A DNA stretch of 64,000 nt from positions 1-64,000 of the forward strand of contig NZ_BBYJ01000023.1 of the NCBI RefSeq assembly GCF_001528665.1. Reading direction: 5' to 3'. The DNA comes from Microtetraspora malaysiensis (GTDB lineage Bacteria; Actinomycetota; Actinomycetes; Streptosporangiales; Streptosporangiaceae). This document shows, one piece after another, positions 50,092 to 53,662 of the stretch (position 1 is its first letter; each line of letters starts with the position of its first letter). The translations under genes were made by a program, and so were the position numbers. The notes beneath the pieces were generated by a model. It did no database searches, was not told the origin of the DNA, and saw only the letters and a program-made list of their open reading frames with translations.

Positions 50092-50769
50092 ATGGCGAGC
50101 ACGAGTGTCATCGACGACTACGTGACCGGGCTGGGCCGTTCCCTGCGCGGGCCCCTGCGGGCCAAGCGCGACCTGCTCGCCGAGGCGCGCGACGGCCTGG
50201 TCGACGCCACCGAGGCGCTGGAGGCGGACGGCCTGCTCCGGCCGGACGCCGAGCGGCTGGCGGTCGAGGAGTTCGGCCCGATCGCCCAGATCGCCCCCGC
50301 GTACCAGGAGGAACTCGCGGTCGGGCAGGGACGCCGGACGGCGCTGCTGCTGTTCCTCTGCGTTCCCTTCACCGCGCTCATGTGGAGCATGATCTGGCGG
50401 ATCTTCCCGGTGGATCCGGTAACGGAGATGGCCCGGTGGCCGGGCTGGTTCCGTCCAGTGTCCCGGATCGTCGACTACACCCAGCTCGCCGTCGGCGTGC
50501 TGGCCGCGGTGGCGCTCCTCGCCTTCGGGCCGGCGCGGCGCAGGCTCGCCCGGCCCTGGCTGGTGACCCGCGCGCTGGGCGTCCTCGTCTGGGTGGAGGT
50601 GCCCCTGGTGGGCGCGCTGTCCCTCCTGCTGTCCATGTCGGCGTCGTTCGACGGCTTCTCGTCGTACCCGCCCGGCGTCGTGGCGACGCTGCTCAGTTGG
50701 GCGTTCATGCTGTGGCAGCTCTCCAGCGCGACCCGCTGCCTGATCTTCACGCCGCGCTCGGCCGCCTGA
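50092..50769 (+). CDS. Permease-prefix-domain membrane protein
   Basis: A 225-aa protein. The N-terminal helical permease prefix domain 1 (about 5-80; YVTGLGRSLRGPLRAKRDLL, then AVEEFGPIAQIAPAYQEELA) is followed by four or five membrane helices. Such genes are typically encoded next to PadR regulators, and here the convergent PadR gene ends 40 bp away. The function is unknown; it is possibly a sensor or a small transporter component. Confidence 0.8.
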   Translation: MASTSVIDDYVTGLGRSLRGPLRAKRDLLAEARDGLVDATEALEADGLLRPDAERLAVEEFGPIAQIAPAYQEELAVGQGRRTALLLFLCVPFTALMWSMIWRIFPVDPVTEMARWPGWFRPVSRIVDYTQLAVGVLAAVALLAFGPARRRLARPWLVTRALGVLVWVEVPLVGALSLLLSMSASFDGFSSYPPGVVATLLSWAFMLWQLSSATRCLIFTPRSAA

Positions 50770-50770
50770 T

Positions 50771-50818
50771 CGGGGCCCGGCCGGTCAGCGGGTGCGGGGC
50801 CCGGCCGGTCACCGGGTG
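50771..50818. repeat. Tandem 24-bp direct repeat with one mismatch
   Basis: Two adjacent copies (50771-50794, 50795-50818) beginning CGGGGCCCGGCCGGTCA differ at one base. The second copy contains the padR stop codon (50809-50811). It probably arose by slippage; it includes GGGGCCCGGCC, which can pair between copies. Confidence 0.85.
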
Positions 50819-51135
50819 CGCGGCTCCAGGACGCTGCCGATCGCGGCGGTGAACTCGCGCCAGGCCGACCGTTCGTCCGCGAGAGCCGTACGGCCCGTGC
50901 CGGTGAGCCGGTATGTGCGGCGTTTGCGCCCGCCGACGGTCGCCCACTCGCCGGCGAGGTAGCCGGCGCGCTCCAGCCTCCGCAGCGCGGGATAGACGGT
51001 GCCGGTCGGGACGGAGAGCGCTCCACCGCTGCGGTCCTGGAGTGCCTCGATGATCGCGTACCCGTGCAGGGGCTCGTGTTCGAGCACGGAGAGCAGCAGA
51101 GCGTCCATGTGCCCATGGAGCGCGTTGGTGTTCAC
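50809..51135 (-). CDS. PadR-family transcriptional regulator
   Basis: A 108-aa winged-helix repressor: DALLLSVLEHEPLHGYAIIE, then GALSVPTGTVYPALRRLERA and GYLAGEWATVGGRKRRTYRL. It lacks the long C-terminal dimer helix of larger PadR proteins (PadR-s1 type). It is divergent from the short cydA gene with a CCTACATGTAGG palindrome between them, so it probably controls cydAB and itself. The start is ATG 51135. Confidence 0.9.
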   Translation of the reverse strand: MNTNALHGHMDALLLSVLEHEPLHGYAIIEALQDRSGGALSVPTGTVYPALRRLERAGYLAGEWATVGGRKRRTYRLTGTGRTALADERSAWREFTAAIGSVLEPRTR

Positions 51136-51169: not shown

Positions 51170-51197
51170 CCTACATGTAGGCTCTCTATATGTAGGA
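51170..51197. promoter_or_regulatory. Probable PadR operator between padR and cydA
   Basis: A perfect palindrome CCTACATGTAGG (51170-51181) is followed at 51187 by a second half-site TATATGTAGGA. The ATGT...ACAT theme is typical of PadR operators. It lies 40 bp before cydA and 35 bp from padR. Confidence 0.65.
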
Positions 51198-51221: not shown

Positions 51222-52412
51222 ATGAATGTGCTCGATCTGGCACGAGCGCAGTTCGCGGTGACGGGGGTCCTGCACTTCCTGTTCGTCGTGCTCACTCTGG
51301 GCCTGGCCCCCCTTGTTGCGATCATCCAGACGCGGCATGTCATCACCGGAAAGCCGGTCTTCGAGCGGATGGCCCGCTTCTGGGGTCAGATCTACGTGAT
51401 CAACTACGCGCTGGGCGTCTTCACCGGCCTGGTGATGGAGTTCCAGTTCGGGCTGAGCTGGAGCGGGCTCTCCCGGTACGCGGGAGACGTCTTCGGCGCG
51501 CCGCTCGCGGTCGAGACGATGGGGGCCTTCTTCCTGGAGTCCACCTTCCTCGGCCTGTGGATCTTCGGCTGGGGCCGACTGCCCCGATGGCTCCACCTGG
51601 CCTGCATCTGGCTGGTCACCCTGACGGCGTACGCGTCCGCGTTCTGGGTCTTGGTCGCGAACTCGTTCCTGCAGAACCCGGCGGGGGCCGAAGTGCGCGG
51701 CGACCACCTCGTGCTGACCGACTTCGGCGCGCTGCTCACCAACCCCACGCTGGTGTTCGCGCTGCCCCACGTGCTCGGCGCGGGGCTGTTCACCGGCAGC
51801 TCCGTCATCATCGGGGCCAGCGCGTACCAGCTCTTCCGCCGCACCCGCGAGAGGGAGTTCTTCGTCCGCTCGCTGCGCGTCGGCGTAGTGGGGGCGCTCG
51901 TCGGCACCCTGGTCGCGGTGGGCTTCGGTTTCGCCCAGTTCGGCCCGGTCGGGCAGGTCCAGCCAGGCAAGTTCGACGGGAACGTGGTCGTCGGAACGTC
52001 GCTGGGCTTCATGATCCTCATCGGCGAGCTGGCCGTGTTCGGTGTGCTGTTCGTCCTGACCCCGCTGCTCTTCCGCGACTGGCTGGCCCGCTGGCGGTGG
52101 ATCCACCCGCTGCTCATGCTCATGACCCCGATGCCGTTCATCGCGGCGATCCTCGGCTGGCTGGTCCGCGAGATCGGCCGCCAGCCGTGGATCGTGTACG
52201 GCCGGCTGACCGTGAAGGACGCCATGTCCCCCGGGCTCACCCCCGGCATGATCACCGCGTCCTTCGTCGCCTTCACCGCCGTGCTCGGCCTGCTCGCCGT
52301 GATCGACTACGTGCTCATCGCCCGCACGGTACGGCGCGGCCCGGCCGCGGCGACCCTCGGCGACCCCGGGCGGCCCGACCCCGCCGCGTCCGCCCCCGCG
52401 CTGACCCTTTAG
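51222..52412 (+). CDS. cydA: Short cytochrome bd-type oxidase subunit I (CydA-like), Q-loop deleted
   Basis: A 396-aa membrane protein with about nine helices. Haem-ligand regions are kept: GVLHFLFVVLTLGL (first His), VETMGAFFLESTFLGLWIFG (Glu residues), FALPHVLGAGLFTGSS (His) and LMLMTPMPFIAAILGWLVRE with GRQPWIVYG. Between helices 6 and 7, where classical CydA has a quinol-binding loop of some 60-140 residues, only about 20 remain (FGPVGQVQPGKFDGNVVVGT). The enzyme may use another electron donor or bind quinol differently. The start is ATG 51222 after AAGGGGAG. A 20-bp duplication covers the stop codon. Confidence 0.85.
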   Translation: MNVLDLARAQFAVTGVLHFLFVVLTLGLAPLVAIIQTRHVITGKPVFERMARFWGQIYVINYALGVFTGLVMEFQFGLSWSGLSRYAGDVFGAPLAVETMGAFFLESTFLGLWIFGWGRLPRWLHLACIWLVTLTAYASAFWVLVANSFLQNPAGAEVRGDHLVLTDFGALLTNPTLVFALPHVLGAGLFTGSSVIIGASAYQLFRRTREREFFVRSLRVGVVGALVGTLVAVGFGFAQFGPVGQVQPGKFDGNVVVGTSLGFMILIGELAVFGVLFVLTPLLFRDWLARWRWIHPLLMLMTPMPFIAAILGWLVREIGRQPWIVYGRLTVKDAMSPGLTPGMITASFVAFTAVLGLLAVIDYVLIARTVRRGPAAATLGDPGRPDPAASAPALTL

Positions 52413-52432
52413 CCCCCGCGCTGACCCTTTAG
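52393..52432. repeat. Exact 20-bp tandem duplication across the cydA stop codon
   Basis: CCCCCGCGCTGACCCTTTAG occurs at 52393-52412 and again at 52413-52432. The first copy ends in the cydA stop. The second repeats the last six codons and the stop in the non-coding gap before cydB. Confidence 0.95.
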
Positions 52433-52468
52433 CCCCCGCCCCCTAGGCCGCCTTTCTAGGAGAGCACG

Positions 52469-53227
52469 ATGGACATCCTCTGGCTCGGCGTGTTCGCGCT
52501 GCTGCTGATCGGCTATTTCGCCCTGGAGGGCTTCGACATCGGGATCGGGATGTTGCTGCCCGTGCTGGGCCGTACCAGGGAGGAACGGGACCGGCTGGTG
52601 GCGGGCATGGCGCCGTTCGTTCTGGCCGGTGAGGTGTGGCTGGTCGCGGTGGCGGGCGTGCTGTTCGGCGCGTTCCCCCACCTGGAGGGCGAGACGCTGT
52701 TCGCCCTGTACCCCCTGGTCGTCGGGCTGCTCGTGTCCTGGGTGATCCGCGACGCCGGGCTGTGGTTCCGGCGCAGGCTCGACGGCCGGGCCTGGCGGGC
52801 GTTCTGGGACGGCGCCCTCTGCGTCGGCTCGTACGGGCTGGCCCTCACCTGGGGGCTGGCCCTGGCCGCCCTCGTCCAGGGCGGTCCGGTGCTCACCCCA
52901 CTCGGGGTGGGCTACGCGGCGGTGGTCGTCGGGGTGTTCGCGATCCACGGGCGCAGGTTCGCCGCGTGGCGGGCGGGCGGGCCGGGCCGTACCGGCTGGG
53001 CGCTGCTCGGCTCCGCGGCCCTGGCGGCGGTGCCGGTGGCGGTGCCGCTGGTCGTCGCCGCCCCGTGGCTGCTCGACCATGTCGCCCCGTCGAGCACGCT
53101 GGGCGTGCTCACGCTGGTGCTCCTGCCCTGCGTGCCGGTCATGGTCGCGGCCCAGGTATGGGTGTGGCGCGCCTTCGGCCGCCGCGCCCGGACAGGCGTC
53201 GGCGCCCGGGTCCCGTCGTTCTTCTGA
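52469..53227 (+). CDS. cydB: Short cytochrome bd-type oxidase subunit II (CydB-like)
   Basis: A 252-aa membrane protein with about seven helices. The CydB signature is clear: IGYFALEGFDIGIGMLLPVL, then LVAGMAPFVLAGEVWLVAVA, GVLFGAFP. Typical CydB proteins have 330-380 residues, so this one lacks the C-terminal helices. It follows the short cydA by 56 bp with RBS CTAGGAGAG. No cydC/cydD assembly genes follow. Confidence 0.82.
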   Translation: MDILWLGVFALLLIGYFALEGFDIGIGMLLPVLGRTREERDRLVAGMAPFVLAGEVWLVAVAGVLFGAFPHLEGETLFALYPLVVGLLVSWVIRDAGLWFRRRLDGRAWRAFWDGALCVGSYGLALTWGLALAALVQGGPVLTPLGVGYAAVVVGVFAIHGRRFAAWRAGGPGRTGWALLGSAALAAVPVAVPLVVAAPWLLDHVAPSSTLGVLTLVLLPCVPVMVAAQVWVWRAFGRRARTGVGARVPSFF

Positions 53228-53332: not shown

Positions 53333-53662
53333 ATGGACAGTATGACGTTCCCTGAGATCGACGTGAAATCCCTGCCGGACGGGGCGTACCTGCTCGACGT
53401 TCGCGAGCCGGACGAATGGCGGGCCGGGCACGCGCCGAACGCGTGTCACATCCCCCTTGGTGAGTTGCAGGGCCGAGTCGGCGAGCTGCCGGACGGTACG
53501 ATCTATGTGATCTGCCGGCTCGGTGGTCGCTCCGCCCACGCGGCAGCCTGGCTCAACCACATCGGACGCGAGGCGATCAACGTGGACGGCGGCATGCAGT
53601 CGTGGGCCACCGCCGGCCTCCCCATGGTGAACGACGACGGGGGAACGCCGTTCGTGGCCTGA
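53333..53662 (+). CDS. Rhodanese-like sulfurtransferase
   Basis: A 109-aa single rhodanese domain: AYLLDVREPDEWRAGHAPNA, then the active loop CRLGGRSAHA with Cys61 and the closing NVDGGMQSWATAGLP. It carries sulfane sulfur. The start is ATG 53333 or, 9 bp on, ATG 53342; the second fits the family N-terminus, the first has TGGAA upstream. Confidence 0.88.
   Translation: MDSMTFPEIDVKSLPDGAYLLDVREPDEWRAGHAPNACHIPLGELQGRVGELPDGTIYVICRLGGRSAHAAAWLNHIGREAINVDGGMQSWATAGLPMVNDDGGTPFVA

Follow-up and report, generated by a model that had tools for sequence, protein, structure and literature searches.

As far as the available excerpts of the literature go, the cytochrome bd dimer of Mycobacterium tuberculosis is built of two pseudo-symmetric subunits with 18 helices in all, and a second menaquinone site of this enzyme requires Trp9. 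The CydA residues R391, E257 and D239 line the aurachin site, and D58 and D105 of CydB belong to a proposed cytoplasmic proton path in Escherichia coli. Quinol oxidation by bd enzymes with a short Q-loop is, in the same excerpts, still debated. Here, we describe a cydAB pair from the soil actinomycete Microtetraspora malaysiensis located in a stretch of 64,000 nucleotides (positions 1 to 64,000 of contig NZ_BBYJ01000023.1, assembly GCF_001528665.1; hereafter, the window), which is part of contig C23 of an 8.82-Mb actinobacterial genome. The comparisons indicate that the pair belongs to a distinct cytochrome bd subfamily, found in actinomycetes only among the matches listed and descended from a quinol-oxidising ancestor of the qOR1 group.

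Both genes lie on the forward strand, cydA at 51222..52412 (396 aa) and cydB at 52469..53227 (252 aa). Their open reading frames (ORFs), coordinates and lengths match those stated in an earlier reading of the window made from its letters (the sequence-only reading), which had seen in them a miniaturised oxidase pair. Based on Pfam, CydA belongs to PF01654 (E 2.7e-109, 366 bits against a cut-off of 26.2), and its match falls into two stretches, profile positions 1–245 (the main one) and 316–418, which means that the Q-loop section is skipped. CydB belongs to PF02322 (E 1.6e-38, 133.3 bits against a cut-off of 35.6), with positions 1–208 of the 302 in the profile covered. Besides ORF and Pfam evidence, the assignment of cydA draws on residue mapping, an AlphaFold2 model and Foldseek, and that of cydB on an AlphaFold2 model and a residue table. 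Among named organisms in our scan, Microtetraspora glauca (Streptosporangiaceae) holds the nearest CydA (87% identity), very close records possibly lying outside the scan.

In an alignment numbered after CydA of E. coli MG1655, 14 residues separate K252 from M393 in the window CydA. The set comprised 145 rows, reduced to 141 distinct CydAs by collapsing 4 identical copies; short calls were excluded (CydA up to 330 aa, first-round CydB up to 180 aa). Genes outside the window and E. coli were called by our own script with a codon model, and their starts may be off. The K252–M393 length was bimodal, being 11–55 residues in 101 CydAs and 72–141 in 40. We refer to these groups as loopless and loop-bearing, with a cut-off of 60 residues that is our own choice; no sequence falls between 55 and 72. 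The claim that the Q-loop is drastically short was therefore borne out.

The AlphaFold2 model of CydA, built from a 49-row alignment (mean predicted local distance difference test score (pLDDT) 94.2), places the end of helix 6 at residue 246 and the start of helix 7 at residue 255. The Q-loop remnant between them is non-helical, covers residues 247–254 (51960..51983, forward strand) and, by the alignment, holds Lys250, the equivalent of K252. Compared by Foldseek with ten bd CydA chains, the model reached query-normalised TM-scores of 0.81–0.90; by CydA sequence, the best matches in the PDB were 7d5i and 7nkz. The sequence-only reading had considered that a quinol loop might be found elsewhere in the protein or that orthologues might carry a full loop. 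No equivalent quinol loop was present elsewhere in the modelled window CydA, and orthologues in six other genera of the same family, full-length and 69–74% identical, have loops of 12–14 residues. An internal deletion in one copy was thereby rejected.

After removal of the Q-loop columns, a 66-row tree placed 34 representatives of the loopless CydAs in a single clade (support 100/100). This clade and 13 actinobacterial loop-bearing CydAs were grouped at 99/94, and a wider group including E. coli CydA at 97/88. The clade stayed intact in a quicker 76-row tree with ten added plasmid CydAs (Shimodaira–Hasegawa approximate likelihood ratio test, 100), where its sister group also contains CydAs of Enterococcus and Deinococcus (94). 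Relative to the sequences in the tree, OR-N not being among them, the topology nests the loopless clade inside the quinol-oxidising qOR1 group; the loci we retrieved contained no sequence recognised as OR-N. The sequence-only reading had proposed a member of the cydA superfamily lacking a recognisable quinol site. This was correct as to the missing site, but an affiliation with the published non-quinol groups (OR-N, OR-C) was not shown, the clade lying inside qOR1.

The heme-binding positions are preserved. His18, Glu73, Glu98, Glu106 and His183 of the window CydA correspond to E. coli H19, E74, E99, E107 and H186, and Met264, Trp313, Glu317 and Arg320 to M393, W441, E445 and R448. All tested ligands are thus present in the window, as first claimed, including the four b595/heme d ligand and active-site positions H19, E99, E107 and E445. 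Across the subfamily, E74, E99, E107, H186, M393, W441, E445 and R448 occur in 101/101 loopless CydAs, so that both b558 ligands (H186 and M393) are invariant; H19 occurs in 99 of the 101, the other two being gapped at this position.

The quinol site is a different matter. In E. coli, quinol oxidation cannot proceed without R391. None of the 101 loopless CydAs has arginine or histidine at this position, against 25 with R and 12 with H among the 40 loop-bearing ones. E257 is found in 4/101 loopless versus 40/40 loop-bearing CydAs, although its placement within the gapped loop is uncertain, D239 in 1/101 versus 29/40, and K252 in 94/101 versus 40/40. The conserved quinol site and Q-loop by which the qOR type is recognised are therefore lacking in the loopless CydAs. 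Loci L051–L057 form a separate loopless clade with K252 absent from most copies. At L051, a kinase-regulator pair precedes the operon, and a 119-aa protein without a Pfam match and an FkbM-type methyltransferase follow it; homologues of these downstream genes were found in several other loci of this clade.

The loopless CydAs also carry residues of their own. Y59, Y63 and R444 occur in 101/101 of them and T100 in 100/101; among the 40 loop-bearing CydAs, Y59 was found once and Y63, T100 and R444 never, and ten outside CydAs from plasmids of other organisms have none of the four. In the sequence, Thr100 adjoins E99 and Arg444 adjoins E445, and Tyr59 and Tyr63 are located in helix 2.

The window CydB carries Leu52, Trp99 and Glu73 at the positions of D58, D105 and Y79, respectively. 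All 100 partners of loopless CydAs have L, F or M at position 58, where 26/26 partners of loop-bearing ones have D, E or N. At position 79, E or K in the 100 loopless partners contrasts with Y or F in 26/26 loop-bearing partners, and at position 105, W, Q or L (100/100) contrasts with E or D (22/26). By alignment, then, the known proton-channel residues of CydB are replaced across the loopless subfamily. The window CydB model (mean pLDDT 93.3) has seven long helices; an equal split of the 18 helices in the M. tuberculosis dimer, a count taken from a partial account, would give nine to each subunit. The earlier description of CydB as short is right for this protein, with its 252 aa and seven long helices, but not in general: the 100 partner CydBs span 206 to 352 aa, and the shortening is not clade-wide. 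At the Lentzea loci L116, L122, L132, L141 and L144, CydB was called at just 206–207 aa, below the length in the window.

Upstream of cydA, a divergent standalone PadR winged-helix regulator is encoded at 50809..51135 on the reverse strand (108 aa; PF03551, E 2.3e-23), in a conserved position. It is preceded at 50092..50769 (forward strand) by a gene for a 225-aa HAAS/permease-prefix domain protein, with 43.8 bits to NCBIfam NF038403 (cut-off 30) and 24.3 bits to Pfam HAAS, slightly below the cut-off of 27; the homologue at L044 reaches 33.4 bits, above it. Available passages of one report (PMC11237479) propose HAAS-PadR pairs as an alternative to two-component systems, sensing membrane-linked or intracellular signals. 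The dyad arrangement, a standalone PadR next to a HAAS-domain protein, is present here with the window HAAS just under the Pfam cut-off, and the HAAS protein is likely the signalling partner of PadR.

The spacer between padR and cydA contains the palindrome CCTACATGTAGG (51170..51181, no strand assigned), a predicted PadR operator, and downstream of it an imperfect second half-site, TATATGTAG (51187..51195, no strand assigned), with similar repeats in other spacers. The core of the palindrome, CTACATGTAG, was found in 45/56 padR-cydA spacers, or in 42/53 when identical spacers were counted once. It occurs once in the 8.82-Mb genome, against nine occurrences of the reversed string used as a control, a pattern suggestive of a single-target regulator. 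As first proposed from the divergent PadR gene and the palindrome, the pair is probably under its own dedicated PadR control.

This arrangement recurs in the named loci, i.e. the best 80 loci of our scan of named genomes, some of them cut by contig ends. Both padR and a HAAS gene are near in 63 of these loci, padR alone in 2, HAAS alone in 4 and a kinase-regulator pair in 4; no regulator was recognised in 5, and 2 (L119 and L142) have no cydA call. The two loopless paralogues of the same genome, on contigs C40 and C4, stand downstream of a histidine kinase and LuxR-type response regulator pair, not of HAAS-PadR. A third kind of sensor-regulator pair beside a loopless operon was seen at L202:3536-4922, where, based on Pfam, genes for a BlaI-type repressor and a membrane peptidase of the M48/M56 type stand before cydA. 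Genes resembling these two, as judged by eye, are present at L203 and at the Micromonospora loci L119 and L142.

The sequence-only reading had remarked that no cydCD genes follow. This is true of the window but not of the lineage: cydD is near in 68/80 named loci, and in most of these 80, as in the loci of the orthologues, cydB is followed by cydD and cydC. In the present genome, cydDC lie on contig C9 and are 68–79% identical to those of five relatives. They stand there without cydAB. Next to them is a pentapeptide-repeat gene, which several relatives have at the edge of the block; as at L048, thioredoxin and DAHP-synthase-like genes are close by. There is no palindrome core before this cydD. 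We rejected the idea that the system as such has lost cydDC, since these genes are kept on C9 beside their ancestral neighbours, and we conclude from gene order that the cydAB block moved away from cydDC in this genome. The relocated state is common to M. glauca.

The block is flanked in the window by fpg and a rhodanese gene (53333..53662, forward strand; Pfam). In the genome of the relative G022, about 0.2 kb separates the two, and cydAB is absent from the gap. The distance is about 2.3 kb in G003 and about 7.5 kb in G009, and no fpg match past the limit was found in G005, G012 and G015; the empty insertion site is clean in one of the six relatives (G022). The only CydD above the cut-off among the matches listed for each of these six genomes is that of the operon described here. 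The rhodanese was rejected as a functional partner and judged, on the G022 comparison, to be a neighbour by relocation outside the system; M. glauca (L067) alone among the 80 named loci has a rhodanese there.

Named loci were found in Streptosporangiaceae, Amycolatopsis, Saccharothrix, Lentzea, Kibdelosporangium, Micromonospora, Rhodococcus rhodnii, Actinomadura and others, all actinomycetes among the matches listed. A search of 41 genomes found 16 with a loopless CydA, namely 15/25 in the family and 1/4 others in the order; family and order membership is our own classification, the absence of a loopless copy was in part read from broken, low-scoring matches, and loops were measured in part. 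In a survey of the phylum with four candidates scored per genome, at least 4 of 396 genomes (this one and three others) had loopless-type matches. Among the survey loci, 24/27 measured CydAs had loops of at least 72 residues, and the 3 loopless ones are those of the three other genomes; 5 of the 32 loci (L191, L193, L197, L206 and L208) had no gene calls and enter no count.

The present genome has three loopless CydAs: the window copy and those on C40 (loop 40; L012:8271-12511) and C4 (loop 41; L013:6721-10743), paired with CydBs of 320 and 261 aa, respectively. Three loop-bearing CydAs (loops: 84, 73 and 73 residues) and two heme-copper oxidase subunit I genes are present as well. The sequence-only reading suggested looking for a canonical cydABCD elsewhere in the genome; besides these three loop-bearing CydAs, there is a sole CydD above the family cut-off, that on C9, without cydAB. 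The ratios of nonsynonymous to synonymous substitution rates against M. glauca, estimated by a simple method, were 0.31 for cydA, 0.21 for cydB and 0.43 for the HAAS gene, and point to purifying selection on cydA and cydB.

Based on the above results, we favour, though at somewhat less than even confidence, the following reading. The pair would be a working member of a subfamily that arose from a qOR1 ancestor, an oxygen reducer fed through b558 at a lidless site, producing little or no proton-motive force and switched by PadR. Loopless CydAB would reduce oxygen, possibly peroxide or nitric oxide (NO) too. Electrons would enter at b558 on the outer face, as argued by the retention of both b558 ligands in every copy. 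Their most likely source would be menaquinol at an open, lidless site, a preference based on the invariant b558 ligands, the retention of K252 in most copies and the lack of a cytochrome c among the neighbouring genes called. Protons may arrive via a remodelled route, generating little or no proton-motive force, and the complex would serve as a stress-induced sink for electrons and oxygen alongside the normal bd and heme-copper oxidases. PadR is predicted to repress from the palindrome, and its HAAS partner would release it upon a membrane-linked signal. All of this, from the hemes bound and the reduction of oxygen to electron entry at b558, weak or missing coupling, repression by PadR and its release by HAAS, is inferred here from genes and models.

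Several points weigh against this reading. The loss of R391, E257 and D239 argues against canonical quinol oxidation, and K252 is lost in 7/101 loopless CydAs. K57, which persists in 5/101 loopless CydAs, is not universal among loop-bearing ones either (24/40). Trp9 is W in 16/40 loop-bearing and 3/101 loopless CydAs, and use of the second menaquinone site of M. tuberculosis was set aside as unsupported on this count. Tyr59 and Tyr63 could form a replacement proton path, and the uncoupling is itself only inferred. The correlated residue losses are confined to one clade and may be a single evolutionary event. Moreover, 17 of 18 genomes chosen for a loopless CydA also hold an unbroken full-profile CydA match, taken as loop-bearing, so respiration need not depend on the loopless copy; in G025, a 94% complete draft, a loopless CydA only was found.

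The alternative that survives best, unlikely as we consider it, is a heme oxidase with a non-quinol donor, in which b558 would be open to the exterior and fed by a protein or a small reductant, as proposed for OR-N. The loss of E257, R391 and D239 beside invariant b558 ligands would fit, and OR-N enzymes have been proposed, in the excerpts available, to use cytochrome c. However, of the 1136 genes called up to six genes away from a loopless cydA, a single one, ferredoxin-like, has the CXXCH motif, distant genes not having been searched; this total includes cydA and counts twice the copies of a genome fetched twice. Retention of K252 in 94/101 also speaks against such a donor. The OR-C family is associated with heme c. 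The CXXCH motif by which OR-C members are recognised is absent from all 101 loopless CydAs and 100 partner CydBs.

We regard as still more doubtful a scheme with no quinol oxidation, in which an unlidded b558 would be fed by an outside donor, possibly reductants exported by the CydDC transporter encoded downstream in most relatives, and the complex, reducing oxygen with no use of the canonical proton channel, would be a non-energy-conserving sink turned on by a membrane-stress regulator. Similarly doubtful is, instead of a respiratory oxidase, a heme-based sensor or a detoxifier of stress agents (NO, peroxide, sulfide, cyanide) that would signal to the adjacent membrane sensor-regulator pair. 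In its favour, padR is near in 65/80 named loci (63 of them with a HAAS gene) and a kinase-regulator pair in 4, and the repressor and peptidase at L202, with look-alikes at L203, L119 and L142, may be counted with them. In addition, the bd oxidase of Chromobacterium violaceum under a local MarR repressor protects, according to a partly available account, against NO, sulfide and cyanide. But adjacency to regulators fits a regulated output equally well, all three heme sites are kept, beyond the needs of a gas sensor, and 11/80 loci have no recognised padR or kinase-regulator pair (2 of these lack a cydA call, and some are cut by contig ends).

It is improbable that the pair is a conventional menaquinol oxidase whose Q-loop is merely trimmed and whose missing residues are dispensable. 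The window CydA does share the canonical fold, and R391 is not universal even among loop-bearing CydAs (25/40). Furthermore, Y243 and R298 are described, in the excerpts available, as conserved only in the long-loop subfamily, which suggests that quinol sites differ between subfamilies. Nevertheless, the absence of R or H at position 391 in 101/101, the changed channel residues of CydB and the new residues next to E99 and E445 amount to more than trimming. A decaying or mis-assembled gene pair, to which the short proteins and the missing adjacent cydDC of this genome might point, is refuted by the full-length orthologues in six other genera, and purifying selection, a conserved operator and a confident fold make it extremely improbable.

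Three further observations concern the surroundings of these genes. At 52400-52439 of the window, a 20-bp tandem duplication covers the end of cydA, including the stop codon. On contig C31 of the same genome (L011:6812-15733), a distant loop-bearing cydAB pair lies beside candidate ergothioneine genes, which we take to be such from their resemblance to ergothioneine biosynthesis genes. In Microbispora hainanensis (L131:4457-5451), two DUF3147 proteins (Pfam) are encoded immediately upstream of loopless cydAB.

No description of a loopless subfamily was found by title or abstract start among the matches listed in a literature search of partial coverage. For this bd-like group, the customary label of quinol oxidase is poorly founded. 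It can be viewed as a natural experiment, in which the quinol lid and a proton-channel aspartate are replaced and three heme sites retained. The residues truly required for energy coupling in bd enzymes are at issue, and the loopless clade bears on them; the complex bears in particular on the need for the Q-loop and CydB Asp58 in oxygen reduction and charge separation.

Among the known systems, the OR-N and OR-C groups of the cydA superfamily, as described in the available excerpts, resemble the loopless CydAs in having no recognisable quinol site. Set against these descriptions, the loopless pair differs in its PF02322 CydB partner, its b558 ligands and the lack of a heme c motif. CioAB of C. 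violaceum under the MarR-type CioR is, in the account at hand, likewise a bd pair with its own local repressor; however, its regulator is of a family other than PadR, and CioAB has a stress phenotype, which the loopless pair is not known to have. The HAAS-PadR dyad of PMC11237479 shows the same juxtaposition of a HAAS gene and a standalone padR, and a bd-oxidase operon, unmentioned as a dyad neighbour in the available passages of that report, is present here. With the canonical actinobacterial qOR1 enzymes (Mycobacterium smegmatis 7d5i, M. tuberculosis 7nkz and Corynebacterium glutamicum 8b4o), the loopless pair shares the fold, the pairing of CydA with CydB and the heme-ligand positions. In contrast to them, it has a remnant in place of the Q-loop, lacks R391, has nearly always lost E257 and rarely has Trp9, and it carries replacements of D58 and D105 in CydB together with signature residues of its own.

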